Part shown: positions 13,091-24,787 of the stretch, one piece after another | How the letters are laid out: each line of letters starts with the position of its first letter | How positions within the stretch are numbered: the first letter of the stretch is position 1 | NCBI GenBank assembly: GCA_002731275.1 | Contig: PCBK01000003.1 | Location: forward strand, 1 to 64,000 | Reading direction: 5' to 3' | DNA length: 64,000 nt | From: Deltaproteobacteria bacterium | Lineage (GTDB): Bacteria; Myxococcota_C; UBA6777 | Notes under the pieces: model-generated | What the model saw: the letters and a program-made list of their open reading frames with translations, nothing else | Databases searched by the model: none | What the model was told of the DNA's origin: nothing | Position numbers and translations under genes: made by a program

Positions 13091-14815
13091 TCACGGACTT
13101 GTACAAAGTCGCTGCTTGATCGTATCTATCAACCTCGGAAGTTCATCGGGATAGAAGATATCATCCCAGCCCCATCGATACAACAGCTGCAAGTCATCTG
13201 TCCGAAACCAACCATCCACGACCAACAAAAACGTCGGGCATGTCTCGGATGTATAACGTAGCTTCATCGCGGCGACGCGACCACATAACTCCTTGCGCTT
13301 GTCCACCCGCCCTTTGTATGCGCTCTGACACTTGATCCAGCACGCTCCTTCTTGGACACAGATCATATTCCCTGTCGCAGGTGCCCACTCACCAAATTCC
13401 CCGGAGAACGATGGATGGCGAAGAGGAAAAGAGACCTCCAGCCCCATCTCCCGCAGCCTTCGCACGACCAACCATTCGAGCGGCTGAAAGAGACGATAAT
13501 TCATCATCTTGTAAAAGAAAATGGACTGACATGTCGTCCGCCTCGCGTCCTCTGCGAGCTGACCAAAACGCTCCCTTCCCCAACGCGATAAATGACCAGA
13601 GAAGACTTCCGCGAGTCGTAACATTGCGTCCTCTCGTACGCACTTTTTTCGGTTGATCATATCGGCGATGTCGATATACCCACGACTGATCCCCTCTTCC
13701 TCACCAAGCTCCCTCGCCAACGCAGAATACCCATAGGCGTCCTGTCCTCCCTCCTCAACTCGACGTAACTGCATCATGGCAGAGAGCAACCAATGCCCCT
13801 CCGAATCGACAACCTCCTCTGTATAGGATAACCCATCAAAGACGTCACGAAGTGCTCCCTTCATCCCCGTAGAGTCCGTCAATCGATCCCAATGCGTGAG
13901 GATCCACTCGTACACCCAGTCCAGCCTGTATAATTCTCTCAACGATCGCGCGTACTCCGAAAACAGCGGCAGTGTTTCGTCGATCAATTCGACAAGCTCG
14001 TCCACCTCTACGAAGATATCTTCCTGTACAAATGCGAGCAATTGCTCATCGACACAGCGCGCACCTCTCAGTGTACGACGAAACCAACCCAGCTCAAGCG
14101 CAAATTGCCATGACGCTGCCTCTTCTTGGACTGGAACCTTGGATACAATCGAATCTCTCGCGACTTGCGGCAGCGCATACCACTTACACAGCGCCCGACG
14201 AAAAGCGGTCGTCTTCGCCACACCACCAAACGCCTCTCTCTCACGTAACCAGGGCGCTGTTTGTGGCGAGGATGTCAGCGCTACAAGCTCAGTCTTACAA
14301 AAAGTGAGAAACCACTCCCACCCATCGATCAATCCATCGCATAATGCACGCTCAACATGCTCTAAAGCTTCCAGCGCCGTCCCCACAGGGGTAGCATGAA
14401 ACAGTTGTTCAAGGGAGCGAGCGAGCGCTTGGCCTTCATTGACATCTTGCCACCGCAAAAATGAGTCAAAGAGCGCCGAATATGCACGATCGAGTTTGTG
14501 CTTGAGTGAACCCGAACACTGCACACTGAACAACACAGGTGGTCCTGGAAGCATCCGCGCCTCAAAGATCTCGGTCATCGTACGCCAGAACTTCTTTTGT
14601 CCAGCCATCGATGCGCCACCGTGTGTCACAAAGCACAACAATGTCGGCGCATCAGTGGGGCCAACGAGAATATCCGGATCGATTGACATCCCCGCAGGTG
14701 TGTGACGACGATCGACGTTCCAGCTCACGTCATCGAAGACTTCAGCAACGGCAAGGTACACCACGGCTTCTTGAAACTTCCACAGCGATTTGCTCCGGAC
14801 ATGTCGTCTTGCCAT
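13091..14815 (-). CDS. Uncharacterised protein, possibly restriction-endonuclease-like
   Basis: A 574-residue cytoplasmic protein with no signal or membrane span. I do not recognise it firmly. Near the N-terminus DPDILVG (about 46-52), a hydrophobic strand LLCFVTH and KKFWRTMTEIFEAR follow one another in the way seen in some PD-(D/E)xK type II restriction enzymes, although a clear ExK is replaced by FVTH. The C-terminal ~120 residues contain a second mixed alpha/beta part with WIKCQSAYKG and TFLLVVDGW, which could also be a nuclease-like core (D/E..K strands). No methyltransferase is nearby. AAGGAG five bases before the ATG fixes the start. It is an isolated minus-strand gene between two Cys-rich lipoproteins, a position compatible with horizontal gain. 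Confidence 0.6.
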   Translation of the reverse strand: MARRHVRSKSLWKFQEAVVYLAVAEVFDDVSWNVDRRHTPAGMSIDPDILVGPTDAPTLLCFVTHGGASMAGQKKFWRTMTEIFEARMLPGPPVLFSVQCSGSLKHKLDRAYSALFDSFLRWQDVNEGQALARSLEQLFHATPVGTALEALEHVERALCDGLIDGWEWFLTFCKTELVALTSSPQTAPWLREREAFGGVAKTTAFRRALCKWYALPQVARDSIVSKVPVQEEAASWQFALELGWFRRTLRGARCVDEQLLAFVQEDIFVEVDELVELIDETLPLFSEYARSLRELYRLDWVYEWILTHWDRLTDSTGMKGALRDVFDGLSYTEEVVDSEGHWLLSAMMQLRRVEEGGQDAYGYSALARELGEEEGISRGYIDIADMINRKKCVREDAMLRLAEVFSGHLSRWGRERFGQLAEDARRTTCQSIFFYKMMNYRLFQPLEWLVVRRLREMGLEVSFPLRHPSFSGEFGEWAPATGNMICVQEGACWIKCQSAYKGRVDKRKELCGRVAAMKLRYTSETCPTFLLVVDGWFRTDDLQLLYRWGWDDIFYPDELPRLIDTIKQRLCTSP

Positions 14816-14946
14816 CGGCGCTCCTTGAAGAAAGACTGGAATCAGGCTACTCTCTTGATCAGAAAAAAAGACACTCTGTGGATGTGACCTTCAAAAGGAC
14901 ATCTTACACATATCAAACCGGGCTTTCGAACGAAAGGACATTGGGT

Positions 14947-17010
14947 ATGCAACAAGGTATTCGCTATCTTTCTTTTGTGTGGAGTACAGGTGTGCTCATT
15001 TTCTTGGTGTTTGGTTGCAGCCAACCCAAACAAGCCGTGTGCACCTTGGACAGAGATTGCCCAACGGGTCACCTTTGCAACAAAGACGATAAAGGCGAAG
15101 CCTTTTGTGAAGCCGTCAAACTCGATGAGTGCCCTTCGAGTTGTAAAGTGGACGCGGACTGTAGCAAGTGCGATGCTGAGAAACAACAATGTGTCCAAGG
15201 TGTTTGTGGCAAAGAGACAGAGAAAACATGCCCAACAACTTGCACGAGCAACCAGGATTGTATCCCTTGCCTCTCCAACCAGTCGTATTGTGTCGGTGGT
15301 GTATGTGGTGAAAAACCAACGTGCCCACAAACGTGCGCCCAAGACGCAGATTGCGCCCCCTGTACGGACACAAAATTTTGTGTAGAGGGTGCATGCGCGA
15401 AAGAGAAGGTCGCTTGCCCTTCCACCTGCACAAAAGACGACGACTGCAAATCCTGCCCAGACCAAAAGCTGGCGTGTACCGAGGGGACATGTCAACAACC
15501 CTCTCAATGTCCTGATAGCTGCGCGACTGACACGGATTGTAGCAAATGCGCTGTCAAGGATCGAGTCTGCGTCTTCGGTAAATGTGGTGACCCGGACTGT
15601 CCGGCAAGTTGCCAGGATGACAGCGACTGTGCAAAATGTTCAAGTGGCAACACCAGCTGTGTCAACAATGTTTGTAGCGCAAAAGCAGTCTGCCCAAAAT
15701 TCTGTTTTATCGATCAGGATTGCGCTCAATGTAGCAAAGACCTCCAAAAATGCACGAACGGTTCTTGTGGCGATCAGGTCCTCTGCCCAGAGTCATGCAA
15801 CGCGGACAGTGATTGTTCTGCCTGTCCAGCCAACCGCGTGGCGTGTCGCAACGGAAGCTGCGCAGAGAAAGACCCCTGCCCAACGACCTGCACAGAAGAC
15901 AAAGATTGTAGCGCCTGTGGGACGGGCTATGTCTGCGATCCAACAGCCAAAACATGCAAAAACCCAAACGCCGTCGGCGTTGGTGGAGAGTGTGACGCAA
16001 ACAAGCCCTGTCAACGCGATCTCTCCTGCCTCGCGATAGAGAATATCCAAAAAAGTTATTGCTTCCAAGTCTGCAACCCCAAGTCCAAGATCTGCGACAG
16101 CAACAAGGCAGATGGACGCGACCAGTGCTTGGAGATCCCCATCGAGAAAGGTTCCGAGCACGTGTGCATTGGTAGCGCCGCAAAGGGAGAGGCTTGTGGT
16201 TTCGCGATCGCAAAGCAAGCGCTCTGTGATGTGAGCACCTCCGCGACACTGTATTGCAGCACAAAAAAGGGGACATGTGAGGACATCACCATCCAAACCA
16301 AAGAAGATGACCCATGTACACCAACAGGCTCGACAGATGAACCCATTCTGCGTTGTGATGTGAGTAAGGGGCTCTATTGCGACCCCACGACCAAAAAGTG
16401 CGGCAAGCAAAACTTTGCCCAAGAAGGTGAGCTTTGTGATCCATCAGGCCGAGTCCTTGGAAAAGTCATTAATTGTGGCTCGGGGATGTCTTGCGTCTCT
16501 TTTGCGACAGGCACAAACCTGCGCTGTCATGTCGACTGCTCGACCAACCAAAGCGGACAGTGCAGTCACAACAAGGACACGACCTGTGTCCCCACGACGA
16601 CAGGAGGTGCTGGTGCCTGTCTCGATACACAGTGTCAATCAGATGCAGATTGCACGTTCAAGGGGTACTTTTGTTTGCGCTCCCAAAGTGGCAACATTTG
16701 CGCTCCTGAACCTCCAGCAGGCCCCGTCTCCTACGGTGGTATTTGCGGAATCCCACTCGATAAATATGGATGTGACGCCAAGTCATCATGTGCACAAGTC
16801 AGCGCTGGCTCTTTGGGCTTTTGTACAGTCGGATGTGACTCAAAAACACCATGTCCATCCCTGAAGACCGCCAATGGCGACATCAAAGCGACCTGTGTCT
16901 CCCAAAGAGGTGTGCTGTTTTGCGTCTTCCTTTGCGACTCGAATTCACCCGTTTGTCCCACGGGCATGAAGTGTCAAAAAACCCCAGCGGGCTCGTATTG
17001 CTTCCCGTAA
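14947..17010 (+). CDS. Cys-rich repeat lipoprotein (CPxxC..DxDC repeats)
   Basis: A 687-residue lipoprotein. The signal peptide ends in a good lipobox, LVFGC, at about residue 26. Residues ~60-330 carry about nine repeats of roughly 30-35 residues with the pattern CPxxCxxDxDCxxC...C...G.C, each with six or more cysteines that could form disulphides. The C-terminal half has further cysteine-spaced modules without strict repetition. Such proteins are frequent on the surface of Myxococcota; function unknown. The frame is open far upstream (to 14539), but that part overlaps the opposite gene and has no ribosome site. The ATG at 14947 has AAAGGA eight bases before it and begins the signal peptide. 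Confidence 0.85.
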   Translation: MQQGIRYLSFVWSTGVLIFLVFGCSQPKQAVCTLDRDCPTGHLCNKDDKGEAFCEAVKLDECPSSCKVDADCSKCDAEKQQCVQGVCGKETEKTCPTTCTSNQDCIPCLSNQSYCVGGVCGEKPTCPQTCAQDADCAPCTDTKFCVEGACAKEKVACPSTCTKDDDCKSCPDQKLACTEGTCQQPSQCPDSCATDTDCSKCAVKDRVCVFGKCGDPDCPASCQDDSDCAKCSSGNTSCVNNVCSAKAVCPKFCFIDQDCAQCSKDLQKCTNGSCGDQVLCPESCNADSDCSACPANRVACRNGSCAEKDPCPTTCTEDKDCSACGTGYVCDPTAKTCKNPNAVGVGGECDANKPCQRDLSCLAIENIQKSYCFQVCNPKSKICDSNKADGRDQCLEIPIEKGSEHVCIGSAAKGEACGFAIAKQALCDVSTSATLYCSTKKGTCEDITIQTKEDDPCTPTGSTDEPILRCDVSKGLYCDPTTKKCGKQNFAQEGELCDPSGRVLGKVINCGSGMSCVSFATGTNLRCHVDCSTNQSGQCSHNKDTTCVPTTTGGAGACLDTQCQSDADCTFKGYFCLRSQSGNICAPEPPAGPVSYGGICGIPLDKYGCDAKSSCAQVSAGSLGFCTVGCDSKTPCPSLKTANGDIKATCVSQRGVLFCVFLCDSNSPVCPTGMKCQKTPAGSYCFP

Positions 17011-17079: not shown

Positions 17080-18549
17080 ATGATTCTCCCTCTCAGCTCA
17101 GAATCTCCTCTCAAACGCCAACCTGTTGTCACTCTAGGCATCGTCGCGCTCAATATCGTCGTATATATTGTGATGCTCGTCATGGATTTCAAGACCAAGC
17201 TGAGTTGGGCGGCGATTCCAGGACACATCGCACAGGCTGACCCACTCACCCTCGCAGGATGGAGGGAGTATATCACTCTCATCACATCGGGGTTTATGCA
17301 CGCAGGGTTTTTCCACCTCCTGTTCAATATGATCTTCTTGATGGCCTTTGGATGCAAGGTTGAAGACCGTCTCGGTCGCCTACGTTATGCACTGTTTTAC
17401 TTTGCCATCTTGCTCCTCTCTGGGCTGACCTTTGTGCTCGCACATACGAGTGTCTACAGGCCATGTATCGGCGCCTCTGGTGCGATCTCAGGTGTTTTGG
17501 GAGCCTACCTGTTCAAATTCCCTCACACCCGTATACGCACCCTCTTCTGGGTCATTATTCGCGTCTGGATCTTGCGTATCCCCGCGTTCTTGTTGCTCGG
17601 ATATTGGTTGCTCCTCAATGTCATTCAATTCTTTAGGCAGACACTCAAAACATCCAATGTCGCATGGCTCACACACCTCGCCGGTTTTATCGTTGGAGTC
17701 GTCTTGATTGGTTTGATGACAGGTTTTCGCATCGAATCAAGCGCCAAAGAGGAGAAAACACACGACTGGCACGAATACTTTCACACTGCAGGTAAGATGC
17801 TCCGCGCGGAGCTGATCTTCTTGCTCCTTATCCCACTGATCATGTACAGCATGGCATTTGTCACCACATTCTTTGTGGAAACGCCTTACTACTACAGCTC
17901 CTACACCTTCTCGATACGCAACAAGCACGCCTTCCGCCTGCTCCTCTCGTGGCTTTACCTCTACATGTTTATCCTGGCTGTGATCGTCGGTATCGTGTGG
18001 ATGTTTGTCCGCCAACGACGGCTCAAACAAGCCCTGATGCTCGAACCCTGCCTGATGTGCAAACAGACCGTCAAGGATGATGAGTTTGGCGACTACATCT
18101 GCCAACATTGTGGATTTGACATCAAACAACAGAGAGAAGAAGATCCAGACAAGCTCGAATTATTGCGGGAGCTTCGCGTGACGGAAGAGTTTGTCAACAA
18201 CATGCACGGTTATCTGGAGACAGAGATTGTCCAGAGCTCTTTGTTGTCATTTGACGACGAAAAAAATGCCGATCTGCTTCGAGGTTTTGAAGAGAGTATT
18301 TCAGTCTTTCGGGATTTTATACAGCATCACACAGAGGGTCTGGGAAAGTTGTTGGAGAGAGACGAAGAGGAGAGGCCCTTTACCTCGGAGGATCTAAAGA
18401 AACTATCACAGATGTCTCCAGATTACACACACAGCGGCGTGGGTGCCAAAGCGGACATCGAGATCCACCGCGAGCAACACAAAATACTCGGTGTTGCCGT
18501 TCAATTTCTTGCACATGTCTCGACGCAATTGAGGGGGACTGTGGAGTAG
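17080..18549 (+). CDS. Rhomboid-family intramembrane serine protease with zinc ribbon
   Basis: Cleaves membrane proteins within the bilayer. The 489-residue protein has the rhomboid core in its first ~210 residues: HLLFNMIFL (His79, Asn83), the catalytic GASGAISG (Ser133) and WLTHLAGF (His199). Two more spans follow at ~240-262 and ~285-310. Then come a cytoplasmic zinc ribbon (CLMCK ... CQHCG, about 325-345) and a helical tail of ~140 residues. The ribbon and tail are additions to the minimal enzyme and may bind a partner or regulate access. It has no strong ribosome site. Its stop is 29 bases from the converging TPR lipoprotein gene. Confidence 0.9.
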   Translation: MILPLSSESPLKRQPVVTLGIVALNIVVYIVMLVMDFKTKLSWAAIPGHIAQADPLTLAGWREYITLITSGFMHAGFFHLLFNMIFLMAFGCKVEDRLGRLRYALFYFAILLLSGLTFVLAHTSVYRPCIGASGAISGVLGAYLFKFPHTRIRTLFWVIIRVWILRIPAFLLLGYWLLLNVIQFFRQTLKTSNVAWLTHLAGFIVGVVLIGLMTGFRIESSAKEEKTHDWHEYFHTAGKMLRAELIFLLLIPLIMYSMAFVTTFFVETPYYYSSYTFSIRNKHAFRLLLSWLYLYMFILAVIVGIVWMFVRQRRLKQALMLEPCLMCKQTVKDDEFGDYICQHCGFDIKQQREEDPDKLELLRELRVTEEFVNNMHGYLETEIVQSSLLSFDDEKNADLLRGFEESISVFRDFIQHHTEGLGKLLERDEEERPFTSEDLKKLSQMSPDYTHSGVGAKADIEIHREQHKILGVAVQFLAHVSTQLRGTVE

Positions 18550-19625: not shown

Positions 19626-20154
19626 ATTCAAGATCTCCTTTGTAAAACAGCAAAGATATCTGTCATCCATTTCCAGAATGTGTGTGTTTTTATAGGTATT
19701 TGATGGATTCGTCAACTCACCAAGCACGCTATAGCACACAGAAGGCAGCAAATGATCCCCAAAGAGTCCCGAATTTTGATGCATTTTTTTGCCCCCTCCA
19801 CGCCTCACACTCAAAAATTTTTCATGCAGGACATTTTTGTCATTCTTTCACATGCCCCATCACAAAAGCCAAAAGACAGCCCCAACCACATCATGACCAT
19901 GTACACCGAAACAAAAATCAGCGCTTACTCTCCACATCACACAGTTGGCACAGTGTGTGCTTAGGGGACCGGCCCGGTGACGCAATCACCCACAAAGAAT
20001 GTTGAGATGTATATCGTACGATCTCTGTTTTGTTGAGAGGTCGTTTTTGTTGCAGGCTGTAAGGCCTGAATCATCGAAGCGTTTGTACAAAAGACAAGCG
20101 CGATCGATGTTTTTTATGGCGGACCACAAGGTCCTATTTTTGGAGAAAAACACT
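19626..20154 (+). other. Divergent intergenic region with sigma-54-type promoter and leader
   Basis: This 529-base gap separates the leftward TPR gene from the rightward small-protein gene. I see no supported gene in it. It holds a near-consensus sigma-54 promoter (19945-19961) about 195 bases before the small-protein start, which leaves a transcribed leader of roughly 180 bases. The leader contains short complementary pieces (for example CAGGC/GCCTG at about 20054-20070) but I recognise no known riboswitch. A plausible housekeeping promoter for the leftward gene lies near 19690-19715. Confidence 0.5.
19945..19961 (+). promoter_or_regulatory. Sigma-54 (-24/-12) promoter for small protein and rSAM genes
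   Basis: TTGGCACAGTGTGTGCT carries GG at 19947-19948 and GC at 19959-19960, exactly the 10-base spacing of the -24/-12 elements. It matches TGGCAC-N5-TTGC(A/T) at all but one conserved base (GTGC in place of TTGC). The predicted transcript start is near 19972. It lies upstream of, and points toward, the gene at 20155. A sigma-54 activator is encoded elsewhere in this window (52584-54005), but nothing shows that it acts here. Confidence 0.6.
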
Positions 20155-20523
20155 ATGAATCAATGCCCACACTGCGAAGGTTTCATCACTGTAGAGATGA
20201 AAGAATGCCCCCACTGCGACACTTCACTTCCCTCCTCCTCTCCCTTCATGCAACGCATCAAACGCTTTGGCCTTGGACGCAGTATTGTTGCTGCGGCCGG
20301 CGGAAGCGCGTTCATGTTAACCTTGATGGCCTGCTATGGTGCTGCGCCACCATGTGACATGGTCGACAACGATAAAGACGGATACACCACGTGTAGCGAT
20401 GGGACCAACTACGCTGGCGGTGATTGTAAAGATGACGACGCCACGATCAACCCTGGTGCGGAAGACAAGGCCGGAGATGACATCGACCAAAACTGTGACG
20501 GGGTCGATGGTGTCGCGCAGTAA
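20155..20523 (+). CDS. Small zinc-ribbon/MopE-like protein, possible rSAM substrate
   Basis: A 122-residue protein in three parts. Residues 1-21 form a CxxC..CxxC zinc ribbon (Cys4, 7, 18, 21). Residues ~40-60 are a hydrophobic segment ending LTLMAC, where Cys60 sits in a lipobox-like context. Residues 61-122 are acidic and resemble MopE/metal-binding motifs: DNDKDGYTTC (71-80), GGDCKDDDATINPGAE (88-103) and DIDQNCDGVDG. If cleaved before Cys60, the ribbon part would be a leader and a 63-residue acidic core would be released to the envelope. GGAG nine bases before the ATG sets the start. A radical SAM/SPASM gene follows after 86 bases, so it may be that enzyme's substrate; this is inference. 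Confidence 0.8.
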   Translation: MNQCPHCEGFITVEMKECPHCDTSLPSSSPFMQRIKRFGLGRSIVAAAGGSAFMLTLMACYGAAPPCDMVDNDKDGYTTCSDGTNYAGGDCKDDDATINPGAEDKAGDDIDQNCDGVDGVAQ

Positions 20524-20544
20524 GTCCAAACCATAACGCTCTAC

Positions 20545-20576
20545 AGTGACATCCCATCGCACGATGGGATGTCACT
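20545..20576 (+). terminator. 15-bp stem hairpin between small protein and rSAM genes
   Basis: AGTGACATCCCATC (from 20545) and its perfect complement GATGGGATGTCACT (to 20576) form a 15-bp stem around a four-base loop GCAC, extended by one more pair outside (C20544-G20577). It lies 21 bases after the stop codon at 20523. No T-run follows (GCTCTTCGACTC), so it is more likely an attenuator or 3'-end stabiliser than a full terminator. It could let the small protein be made in excess over the downstream enzyme. Confidence 0.75.
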
Positions 20577-20609
20577 GCTCTTCGACTCTCTTTGCAAAGG
20601 TGTCCCGTC

Positions 20610-21947
20610 ATGAGTACACGCCGCGTATCCGTAGCCTCCTCCTATCACCCCCGTTATGTCGTCTGGGAATTGACCTTGCGCTGTGATCAATCTTGCAATC
20701 ACTGTGGTTCACGTGCAGGCGACGCGAGAGACACAGAGTTGTCACTCGAAGAAGCCCTTGGTGTCGTGCAAGAGCTCAAAGAGATGCAGACCAAAGATGT
20801 CGTCCTGATCGGCGGTGAAGCCTATCTTCACCCAGGTTTCCTGGAGATCGTCAAGGCGCTCAAAGCGTCCGGGATTCGCCCTATGATGACCACTGGAGGT
20901 GTGGGGATCACCGAAGAATTGGCGCAATCGATGAAAGACGCAGGGATGGCGCAGGTCTCAGTCAGTGTAGACGGTCTGGAGCGCTCTCATGACCTGATTC
21001 GCGGAAAGAAAGGTAGCTTTCAAGCCGCGCTACGTGCCCTCGACGCGATGAGGGCTGTTGGACTCCCAACAGGTGCAAACACCAACATCAACCGGGTGAA
21101 TCGCGATGATCTCGACGCGCTCTTTGCCTTGCTCAAAGACAAAGGGATCAACGCCTGGCAAGTCCAGATCACTGTCCCACTCGGACGTGCCGCAGATCGC
21201 CCTCAAATGCTGCTTCAACCATACGACCTCATGGAGCTGATGCCCAAAGTCGCAGCGCTTAAACGCAGCGCTTATACACAAGGTATCACAGTCATGCCTG
21301 GCAATAATTACGGTTACTTTGGTCCCGAAGAGGGCTTGATGCGTTCACTTCATGAAGGTGGAAACGACCACTGGCATGGATGTATGGCTGGACGATTTGT
21401 GATGGGGATCGAGTCTGACGGCGCAGTCAAAGGTTGTCCTTCCCTGCAAACCAAAGACTACGTCGGCGGGAAGCTCGGTGAACAACCTCTACGAGAGATC
21501 TGGGAGACATCCCCACAAGTCGGCTTCACACGAACGCGCACAAAAGAAGATTTGTGGGGTTTTTGTCGCACATGCCCGTTCGCAGAGACCTGCATGGCAG
21601 GCTGTAGCTTTACAGCGCACGCACTCTTTGGCCGGACAGGCAACAACCCATACTGCCACTTTCGCGCACGTACACTCGCCAAACAGGGCAAACGCGAACG
21701 ACTCATCGCCAAAGAGATGGCCAGCGGAGACCCTTTTGATCACGGACTGTTCGAGATCGTCGTCGAAGACATCGACGCGACCGAGCCAGCCTTTACACAG
21801 CACTTCTCTGCCGAGACACGGTTTGGTGTTCACGTAAAAGAGTACCCGGAGACACCAGAAGGCAAACACAAACGCCTCGCCCAACTCGTCCGAAAGCTGG
21901 CCAAGCAGCGCAAGACCCCCTGCTCATCCTGTCCCAGCCAGATGTAA
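20610..21947 (+). CDS. Radical SAM/SPASM domain protein
   Basis: A 445-residue enzyme. The radical SAM cluster motif is CDQSCNHC (Cys25, 29, 32), binding the [4Fe-4S] centre that cleaves S-adenosylmethionine. GGE (68-70) and later strands fit the TIM-barrel. A C-terminal SPASM region has Cys258, Cys276, Cys319, 322, 328, 332 and 349, enough for auxiliary clusters, as in maturases of ribosomally made peptides (PqqE, AlbA type) and anaerobic sulfatase-maturing enzymes. The last ~95 residues end with CSSCPSQ. The ATG at 20610 has AAAGG nine bases upstream. No sulfatase is nearby; the small protein at 20155 is the obvious candidate substrate. Confidence 0.9.
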   Translation: MSTRRVSVASSYHPRYVVWELTLRCDQSCNHCGSRAGDARDTELSLEEALGVVQELKEMQTKDVVLIGGEAYLHPGFLEIVKALKASGIRPMMTTGGVGITEELAQSMKDAGMAQVSVSVDGLERSHDLIRGKKGSFQAALRALDAMRAVGLPTGANTNINRVNRDDLDALFALLKDKGINAWQVQITVPLGRAADRPQMLLQPYDLMELMPKVAALKRSAYTQGITVMPGNNYGYFGPEEGLMRSLHEGGNDHWHGCMAGRFVMGIESDGAVKGCPSLQTKDYVGGKLGEQPLREIWETSPQVGFTRTRTKEDLWGFCRTCPFAETCMAGCSFTAHALFGRTGNNPYCHFRARTLAKQGKRERLIAKEMASGDPFDHGLFEIVVEDIDATEPAFTQHFSAETRFGVHVKEYPETPEGKHKRLAQLVRKLAKQRKTPCSSCPSQM

Positions 21948-21962: not shown

Positions 21963-23426
21963 TTATCCCATCGTCTTCTCAAGCGCTGGCATCCCAACAG
22001 GCGTCAACAAGGCTTCGAGCTCTTTGGCGGCGTGAAGCAAAAACAGATCGTGAAAACGTGGCGCTTGTAATTGCAACCCAATGGGCAAACCATCACGCCC
22101 CATACCACAAGGGATCGCGAGCGCAGCGTGTCCAGTCAAAGAGGTCACACAATTCCAGACACCTGTCACATCACTATAAGGAACCTTTTGTCCATCGACT
22201 TCGAGGGACGCACCAGTGCGACAATGAGGAAACGCGGTCCTTCCAGCGACAGGCATCAACCACAGATCATATGTATCAAAGAAGCTATCGAGCTGTTCGA
22301 GGATACCATCAAGTGTATGTTGCGCGAGAAAATATCGAAAGCGATTATTTGTCGTCCCCCGACCAACGTACTTTGCGTACGTACTCGCACCAAACATCCA
22401 ACGCAAGATCGCAAAACGCATCAACAGTCCTCCCATCCACCCTCTTCCAATCCAGGGCGCGAGTTGTTTTAGTTCGAATCCATGAACATCCCCCCAACAC
22501 TGAAAAGCTTCCTCAAAAGAGTACGACGGACTGGCCTCAATGACCTCGGCCCCAGCTTTACGCAGTGTCTCGACGACCTGAAGACAGACATCTTTTGTAT
22601 CTAGAGAGAGAGGGTAACCAATATCCATCGTATAAGCGATTTTCAGCGTAGAGAGTGGACGCTGCTTCCCCAACCCCATCGCAAACTGCGATGTATCGCG
22701 ACGTGGATCGAGCAAGACCTCACGCATTAAAAAATCAATATCTTCGACATGACGGGCATGTGGACCAACTGAAACAAAATGCCTCATCGCATGGCATCCG
22801 CCAGGCATATTGGCGTGCCCTTTGGAGGATAACAATCCAAAACTCGGTCGCAGGCCATACACACCGCAAAAGTGAGACGGCACCCGGATCGAGCCCGCCA
22901 CATCACTCCCGATCCCCACAGGCGTCAATCCTGCGGCGACTGCGGCAGCAGCCCCACCAGAGCTGCCTCCTGGTGTGCACGTTGGGTCCCAAGGGTTACA
23001 GGTTCGACCATATACGAGGTTGTTTGTCTGCCAATCATACGAAGATGTCGGCAAATTAGTCTTCCCCCAGATATTCGCCCCGGCTTGTTTGAGTTGCCGC
23101 ACCAACACAGCGTCCTGTGACGCCACGTTGTTGCGAAGCCATGGTAAACCGATCGTCGTCTTCATCCCTTTGACATCAAAGGCCTCTTTAACAGTCATCG
23201 GGATACCGTGAAGAGGCCCCCAGTCTTCCCCCTGCGCCCATGCTTTGTCAGCCTGATCAGCCAATTGGCGCGCACCTTCGACATCGGAGACGACGATCGC
23301 GTTGAGAACCGAATGATAAGTTTCGAAGCGCGACAGGTGCGCTTCTAGCAGCTCACGAGCGCTTACATTTTTTGCTCGAAACGCATCCACCATTTTTCGT
23401 AATGACCACGATGTCAAATCATCCAT
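21963..23426 (-). CDS. Amidase (amidase-signature family)
   Basis: Hydrolyses amide bonds; a 487-residue cytoplasmic protein. The Ser-cisSer-Lys apparatus is visible: TVKEAFD holds the catalytic Lys (about residue 79) and the Gly/Ser signature GGSSGGAAAAVAAG with GSDVAGSIRVP holds both serines (about 155-180). Length and layout are like fatty-acid-amide-hydrolase-type and generic amidases rather than GatA, and no GatB or GatC is near. The ATG at 23426 has AAGGAG five bases upstream; longer in-frame reading to 23594 lacks this. It converges with the rSAM gene, 15 bases apart. The substrate cannot be told. Confidence 0.92.
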   Translation of the reverse strand: MDDLTSWSLRKMVDAFRAKNVSARELLEAHLSRFETYHSVLNAIVVSDVEGARQLADQADKAWAQGEDWGPLHGIPMTVKEAFDVKGMKTTIGLPWLRNNVASQDAVLVRQLKQAGANIWGKTNLPTSSYDWQTNNLVYGRTCNPWDPTCTPGGSSGGAAAAVAAGLTPVGIGSDVAGSIRVPSHFCGVYGLRPSFGLLSSKGHANMPGGCHAMRHFVSVGPHARHVEDIDFLMREVLLDPRRDTSQFAMGLGKQRPLSTLKIAYTMDIGYPLSLDTKDVCLQVVETLRKAGAEVIEASPSYSFEEAFQCWGDVHGFELKQLAPWIGRGWMGGLLMRFAILRWMFGASTYAKYVGRGTTNNRFRYFLAQHTLDGILEQLDSFFDTYDLWLMPVAGRTAFPHCRTGASLEVDGQKVPYSDVTGVWNCVTSLTGHAALAIPCGMGRDGLPIGLQLQAPRFHDLFLLHAAKELEALLTPVGMPALEKTMG

Positions 23427-23905
23427 CTCAGCTCCTTGCGGTGTCTTAACCATTGCCTTGGAATACAAACCGATCCTCTGTGTTGTTCTATTTTGCATCT
23501 CCCAAAAATCCAGACAAGCAGCCAAACGCTCTGTAGCGTGTATCGCGCTCCAAATGAGCGCCAAAGTCCATCTCCCCTCAGGGACAGACATCATCCATTC
23601 TCGCTAGAGCCTGAAGCGAAAAAAGACCACACACACACTCCACCAGCCCTCAAAGACAACTCCTTCCTCTTTTTTTTCAATTCAAAATCAAAGCATTACA
23701 AACTTTTTTCACATTTTTTTGTTTTGCGTGGTGCGATCTTGGTTGGGGCTACGATTTACCTGTCAGAACGTTTCACAAAACGCTTCAGTCCTGCTCGCTT
23801 CTGAGTGGGATTCTAATATGCATTCACTGCGACGATGCTGGCTTTACCCCTGATGGGTACTCGTGCGCGTGTGATATGGACCAACTGATTTGGAGCATGA
23901 AAATC
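23427..23905 (+). other. Divergent gene-free stretch, AT-rich
   Basis: This stretch of 479 bases lies between the leftward amidase and the rightward lipoprotein. No supported gene, tRNA or repeat was seen. Bases ~23665-23735 are strongly T-rich (runs of T8 and T7), which could bend DNA or serve as promoter upstream elements. No clear -35/-10 pair could be chosen. Confidence 0.5.
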
Positions 23906-24787
23906 ATGAAAAAAACGAAAGTCACCCTTCTCACTTCCGCCCTTTTGATGGTCTTCTCGATGACAGGTTGCACAGCCCTGAAGAAGATGTTTGTCAAGAA
24001 AAAGAGCAGCTACCAGCTGAGAAAAGAACGCCAAGCCAAAGCAGCGAAAGCAGGTACTGAAGCCCTCGCGAAATTGAAATCCGGCAAAGCGAGCTGCGAA
24101 GACATCATCAAGCTCGCCAAGATGGCGAACAAAGCGCCCAGTAAAAGAGGCGGGTATGTAGAGAAATATGGCATCATCGCAAGTGAAGCGGCTCGCTGCA
24201 AAAAATGGGACTATGTCTTCCGTCACACAGCCCGCATCAACTACCGCCCCTTCACCAAAGTCATGAAGTACGTCGAAGCCAAAGGGTACGACACACACAC
24301 GGCTTATGACAAATGGCTCAACGGACAAAAACACCCCTACTACAACGTAGGATATGGAAACTACTCCTTGACCTCCATTCGTGGATGGTTGCAAAAGAGC
24401 TCCAAAAAGAAATCCCACTGCAAAGCGTTCGCATCTGCCGCTCAACGTACATACGAATCCGTCGAAGCGGACGGAAAAATGGGCCGCGTCGCAGCGCAAT
24501 ACAACAGAAAGTGGAACCGCTACTACCGCTCCGGTTTTGTCGGATACCTCTACGTCGCAGACTGCCAAGAGCACATCAAACTTGTGCGCAAAATGCTCAC
24601 TGGAAACAACTGGAAAGATCGCAGCCAAGCATGTGACATCATGGCCAAATGGGGCAAAAAGTCCGACCTGAGAAGGCTCCGCACCATCGCTTCAACAGAT
24701 GCTTACTCCTACTTCCGCCGTCGTAACCGCATCTTCCCCGTACGTGACATGTGCCGCAAAGCAGCTGGTCGCGTCTCCATGCGATAA
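23906..24787 (+). CDS. Uncharacterised basic lipoprotein
   Basis: A 293-residue lipoprotein with signal peptide and lipobox SMTGC (Cys at about residue 22), followed by a Lys-rich stretch (ALKKMFVKKKSSYQLRKERQ). I do not recognise the family. The rest is helical and basic with scattered Cys and Tyr/Trp. The last ~80 residues (LVRKMLTGNNWKDRSQACDI ... DLRRLRTIAS) look like HEAT-type helical repeats. The ATG at 23906 has GGAG ten bases before it; an ATG at 23897 is too close to that site. It converges with the beta-helix protein gene, 30 bases between stops. Confidence 0.75.
   Translation: MKKTKVTLLTSALLMVFSMTGCTALKKMFVKKKSSYQLRKERQAKAAKAGTEALAKLKSGKASCEDIIKLAKMANKAPSKRGGYVEKYGIIASEAARCKKWDYVFRHTARINYRPFTKVMKYVEAKGYDTHTAYDKWLNGQKHPYYNVGYGNYSLTSIRGWLQKSSKKKSHCKAFASAAQRTYESVEADGKMGRVAAQYNRKWNRYYRSGFVGYLYVADCQEHIKLVRKMLTGNNWKDRSQACDIMAKWGKKSDLRRLRTIASTDAYSYFRRRNRIFPVRDMCRKAAGRVSMR

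Follow-up and report, generated by a model that had tools for sequence, protein, structure and literature searches.

A predicted splicease-type radical SAM/SPASM enzyme and its zinc-ribbon partner protein in Myxococcota

In the window, the whole 64,000-nucleotide stretch of contig PCBK01000003.1 that we analyzed, a gene for a small Cys-rich protein stands ahead of a gene for a radical SAM/SPASM enzyme. The locus raises the question of whether the small protein is the substrate of the enzyme and, if so, which part of it would be modified. In the best explanation, to which we assign a probability of about 0.75, the enzyme is a radical SAM/SPASM maturase of the splicease type that acts on the small protein as its dedicated substrate, with export and anchoring of the protein after splicing. 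Spliceases as such are already known and widespread. According to two reports on PlpX, this enzyme of SPASM subclass IPR026482 acts together with PlpY to excise tyramine from Xaa-Tyr-Gly, leaving an alpha-keto amide (PMC11002830, PMC10533398). A further paper describes the splicing reaction as broadly distributed in bacteria and its products as protease inhibitors (PMC10373908, citing Scott et al. 2022).

Association of the two genes

The small-protein gene occupies 20155-20523 of the forward strand, and its ATG at 20155 is preceded by GGAG, a plausible ribosome-binding site. The enzyme gene (445 codons) follows on the same strand at 20610-21947. The original prediction had joined the two as substrate and enzyme and had asked whether the small protein lies beside each homologue of the enzyme. 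Orthologous enzymes with 57-72% identity were found in many Myxococcota, as well as in one relative (G003) that belongs to the same family as the window. An ORF with the ribbon and a Tyr-Gly (YG) pair adjoins the enzyme in 36 of 39 orthologous loci, compared with none of 16 outgroup radical SAM loci and 2 of 195 mononucleotide shuffles. Of the three exceptions, L061 is a locus at a contig end. L056 has no ribbon neighbour, and another contig of the same genome (G195) encodes a ribbon protein with LMACYGVPC. The third, L068, does have the ribbon gene, in which a gap removes the LMACYG stretch; the gap may be a genuine deletion or may stem from the assembly, and it counts against the splicease reading. 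A sulfatase or other conserved substrate was considered as an alternative and rejected, as none adjoins the orthologues whose ORF lists were inspected.

The association also holds between genomes. A ribbon-alignment search of 195 Myxococcota genomes gave strong, nearly full-length ribbon matches in 34 of 36 enzyme-bearing genomes versus 1 of 159 enzyme-free ones (tallied by hand from tables; a Fisher test that takes no account of shared ancestry gives p of about 2e-34). In the two enzyme-bearing genomes with no strong ribbon match, G057 and G111, the enzyme is at a contig end or partial. G224 had been scored as enzyme-free with a ribbon match, and inspection shows a divergent enzyme remnant beside the gene. 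On contig 81 of this genome (L161, 4107-4718 and 4906-5658), an LMACYG ribbon gene stands next to this partial or frameshifted remnant.

The pairing of the two genes is real, and both the adjacency and the co-occurrence support an enzyme-substrate relation, as originally proposed. The single sigma-54-type promoter ahead of both genes in the window would also suit mere neighbours that share, for example, a regulon. However, the two genes are co-directional in the window, L006, and others but divergent in many members of the large f29 family, and many myxobacterial loci with the divergent order still keep them adjacent. In G195 the genes lie on different contigs of one genome, and the co-occurrence is almost perfect in both directions. 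A neighbourhood lacking an enzyme-substrate relation is therefore very improbable.

The promoter element TGGCACAGTGTGTGCT at 19946-19961 (forward strand) was recognized by a pattern match and by conservation upstream of orthologues. The relaxed −24/−12 pattern matches twice in the window versus 0.23 expected. In 17 of 30 non-redundant orthologous loci, such a site precedes the start codon of the ribbon gene by 45-80 nt, versus a background of 1.1%; the comparison is rough because the background sample covered entire loci, coding DNA included. The distance to the start codon is 209 nt in the window (ATG 20155) and 155 nt in L006. The window's genome also contains rpoN. These findings bear out the predicted sigma-54-type promoter, which would drive transcription.

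Between the two genes, the expected hairpin with a 15-bp stem is present at 20544-20577 (forward strand; z = -4.7), with no T run after it. It is strong in the window, but in the closest orthologue, L006, the enzyme and ribbon genes overlap and leave no room for it, and we rejected it as a shared regulatory element. Two further genes lie upstream of the pair in the window and were not seen in L006. One encodes a large protein that is rich in Cys, with the cysteines in repeated clusters (14539-17010), and the other a rhomboid protease with a zinc-ribbon-like C-terminal region (17080-18549).

Conserved elements of the small protein

The small protein of 122 residues has the predicted layout of a CxxC-x10-CxxC ribbon, a hydrophobic segment up to LMAC, and a tail. 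It starts with MNQCPHCEGFITVEMKECPHCD, which is followed by a basic stretch, the hydrophobic segment, LTLMACYGAAPPCDMVDNDKDGY, and an acidic MopE-like tail. The zinc ribbon (C4-x2-C7-x10-C18-x2-C21, residues 4-21) is encoded at 20164-20217 and is proposed to be a cytosolic recognition leader. The hydrophobic segment IVAAAGGSAFMLTLMAC (residues 44-60, 20284-20334) has a mean Kyte-Doolittle value of 1.9 over its 17 residues and ends in the lipobox-like LMAC, which continues as LMAC-Y-G-AAPPC. Cys60-Tyr61-Gly62 (20332-20340, forward strand like all these features) is the predicted splice site, Xaa-Tyr-Gly being the known site of PlpX (PMC10533398, PMC11002830).

Across 18 aligned orthologous partners, the four ribbon cysteines, Gly9, Tyr61, and Gly62 are invariant, and Tyr61-Gly62 are the sole invariant residues outside the ribbon. 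The usual context of the YG pair is (L)MACYGxP(P)C, commonly TLMACYGMPPC. In a larger set of 40 partner proteins, Tyr directly follows Cys in 29 and Leu, Ala, Val, or Ile in the rest; a Pro mostly occurs within two residues after the Gly, and 37 have a further Cys 4-7 residues after Tyr. Proteins in which Tyr does not follow Cys have a separate Cys upstream, mostly a few residues before YG (SSCFVAQPVYG, SACPQPVYG, TSCVAIYG). This would be expected if the Cys is the anchor and YG is the splice site. The orthologous substrate of L064 has CYGVGTG with no Pro in the usual place, which counts against a splicease.

The original prediction had placed the modification in the acidic Cys/Asp-rich core, and this part of it failed. 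The metal-binding motif of the tail (residues 90-117, 20422-20505, forward strand) matches PF11617 (MopE) at 26.6 bits, with a gathering cut-off of 27, and the corresponding tail of L006 scores 36 bits. If the tail were the modified product, the YG pair would be a mere feature of the signal peptide. The occurrence of MopE-like tails in the window, L006, L058, and L064, which include early-branching lineages, agrees with this, as does the acidity of the tail in most members. However, the MopE motif is missing from most orthologues, whose unrelated tails are rich in DGG/DAG and still follow a retained CYGxP. Because the tails are unrelated in most members and Tyr-Gly is invariant, the conserved target is Tyr-Gly, which after Cys matches the XYG motif of the enzyme family, and not the acidic core. 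We rejected the tail as the product and give this alternative hardly any weight. Among the papers searched, none connects MopE with radical SAM and SPASM.

The ribbon and hydrophobic part as leader or anchor with a lipobox-like Cys fared better. In addition to the invariant ribbon cysteines, a relaxed lipobox pattern is found in 33 of 40 partner proteins, with LSAC or FTAC in others, and putative cleavage at Cys60 is plausible. Lipidation is uncertain, since LMAC deviates from the lipobox [LVI][ASTVI][GAS]C at position -2 (Met) and it is unusual for a signal segment to come after a ribbon.

Apart from the window protein, the window's genome (G000) yielded a single ribbon relative, which partners a second copy of the enzyme on contig 167 (L002, about 22410-24080). 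This pair resembles the window pair in its ribbon, its hydrophobic segment, a lipobox-like FTAC, and a downstream enzyme, which is 48% identical to the window enzyme. Unlike the window pair, it has two YGIP sites well after the lipobox Cys, and its enzyme belongs to another subclade.

Kinship of the enzyme

The enzyme has a CxxxCxxC motif (C25, C29, C32) and, as predicted, seven SPASM-region cysteines (C258, C276, C319, C322, C328, C332, C349), and all ten are invariant in an alignment of 32 enzymes. It matches PF04055 with 90 bits and PF13186 with 34.5 bits. The AlphaFold model (pLDDT 87) is closest to the folds of SkfB, SuiB, and anSME (Z 26-28). Its C-terminal 50 residues have low pLDDT and contain one helix at 416-433. 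The motifs, the SPASM cysteines, and the fold match place the protein among the radical SAM/SPASM enzymes. The model supports a SPASM maturase fold and not any particular reaction.

Among the NCBIfam models, TIGR04103 ('nif11-class peptide radical SAM maturase 3'), which presumably corresponds to IPR026482, matches best. The score of 458 bits does not reach the cut-off of 725, which counts against the splicease reading. This cut-off is exceeded in 14 of 244 cyanobacterial genomes, and the window enzyme is about 46% identical to the cyanobacterial members. In a maximum-likelihood tree of 94 rows, with SH-aLRT as its sole support measure, the window clade (99) forms a superclade (100) with a GDL-like group and a cyanobacterial/myxobacterial TIGR04103-like group. 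Any kinship with PlpX itself and with the enzymes of Scott et al. (2022) is indirect, the cyanobacterial TIGR04103 members over the cut-off standing in for PlpX; this also counts against the splicease reading. The window clade stands beside the cyanobacterial spliceases as a sister group and does not branch from within them, and its sister group also holds maturases of GDL peptides; both points count against a splicease. The GDL-motif peptide maturases (TIGR03913) share the superclade with the window enzyme, and some of their DUF1843 peptides have PYG near the start. Unlike the window substrate, these peptides are small and have neither ribbon nor anchor. DUF1843/GDL peptides also adjoin related maturases on Azospirillum and Aureibacter plasmids (L122, L123), and the PYG near the start of some hints at a related core.

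The YG core recurs in proteins encoded beside related enzymes. In the cyanobacterial TIGR04103 loci (12 fetched and a Nostoc plasmid), the precursors are of the Nif11 type or similar to it, and their core reads LYG, IYG, MYG, or CYG, in most cases with Pro after it (for example PLYGVVWPP, AIYGLPP, and LQCYGLPP). These loci also have a small gene downstream that takes the place of PlpY. On the Nostoc sp. C057 plasmid p057_G (L121), the likeness to the window pair lies in the enzyme kinship, the SPASM cysteines, and the YG..P core (ALYGLPPELF). Unlike the window pair, this locus has a Nif11 leader and a downstream gene in the PlpY position, and its precursor has no hydrophobic anchor segment. 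Myxococcota relatives at 42-50% identity adjoin unrelated proteins with nothing in common but YG..P, which often recurs within a protein (for example PPIAMRYGLRPP, PLYGIFRPP, MYGVIMP, and DYGLPPP). In the partners of the myxobacterial TIGR04103-like enzymes, the first of these occurs four times, ARYGVIRP at least five times, and PLYG..P nine times, and DYGLPPP follows a GG leader.

Several other arrangements were observed among the related loci. In L099, L074, L076, L078, L081, L083, and L035, a protein upstream of the enzyme contains several tandem YG..P repeats (nine PLYG..P or PMYG..P in L099), and such proteins are apparently multi-site substrates of related enzymes. In L035 (two tandem copies), L074, L076, L078, L081, and L099, a conserved protein of about 96 residues lies downstream of the enzyme, and several of these proteins have an SNYGYP motif. 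The one that was scanned had no Pfam match, and the protein may serve as another substrate or have an accessory role in recognition. L082, L084, L086, L091, and L093-L098 encode small precursors with a double-glycine-like leader end and then one YG core, for example IRGGSADYGLPPP. Downstream of more distant enzymes (35-39% identity), Cys-rich repeats CDYGVLPP or CDYGILPPEV are found in L103 (3419-3763) and L107 (3871-4182), so YG..P may extend beyond the superclade.

The YG site could also be modified by another radical reaction, for example Tyr decarboxylation, a crosslink, or a thioether via Cys60 or Cys67, with no excision of tyramine. The sister position of the window clade, the second Cys after Tyr in 37 of 40 substrates, and the occurrence of the radical SAM/SPASM fold in maturases that form sactipeptides or crosslinks, SkfB and SuiB among them, are all compatible with such a reaction. 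However, it is Tyr-Gly that is invariant and not the preceding Cys, whose place may be taken by Leu, Ala, Val, or Ile, and the YG..P core is common to the window substrate and the TIGR04103 clade. We consider another radical reaction unlikely, and the grouping with TIGR04103 enzymes together with the adjacent Xaa-Tyr-Gly precursor points to a splicease.

Proposed splicing and anchoring of the small protein

In the proposed splicease mechanism, the zinc ribbon would stay in the cytosol and bind the enzyme as a recognition leader, and the enzyme would excise tyramine at Cys60-Tyr61-Gly62. The spliced protein would then be exported and anchored at the Cys, probably by the lipoprotein route, or as a membrane-spanning protein. 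An electrophilic ketoamide would thereby be left at the membrane face, at the base of the acidic extracytoplasmic tail. Since the XYG core is on the outer side of the hydrophobic segment, splicing must precede export, which counts against the splicease reading. We infer that splicing would spare the Ala59-Cys60 bond and the thiol, so processing by signal peptidase II would still be chemically possible even if the residue before Tyr is the lipobox Cys.

The closest known counterpart is PlpX/PlpY with PlpA of Pleurocapsa (Morinaka et al. 2018), in which an enzyme of the TIGR04103 kind is likewise next to an Xaa-Tyr-Gly precursor with a Pro-containing stretch after the core (PMC11002830, PMC10533398). 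The published splice tags contain PIRPLYGLPI and AVAAGYGVVFP (PMC10533398, PMC11002830). Unlike PlpA with its Nif11/NHLP leader, the window precursor combines a zinc ribbon as leader with a hydrophobic segment that is lipobox-like, and its residue before Tyr is Cys. A PlpY homologue was not found near the window enzyme or elsewhere in the window clade at E 1 with a single Nostoc PlpY-position query, a weak test, although this query matches 12 of 12 cyanobacterial loci. The ribbon may act as a substitute for PlpY. With a zinc-ribbon, lipoprotein-like substrate, a lipobox-like Cys before Tyr, and no PlpY homologue found nearby, the pair appears to be a new form of splicease system, as judged against these descriptions of PlpX/PlpY.

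A 2022 review states that a natural spliceotide had yet to be isolated and gives the biological role as unknown (PMC8868522). The window pair offers a clean one-site substrate, an enzyme for which no nearby PlpY homologue was found, and possibly a new lipoprotein chemistry. Many myxobacteria conserve this apparently sigma-54-controlled pair, which suggests a use of backbone splicing for a cellular protein in the envelope, beyond peptide metabolites.
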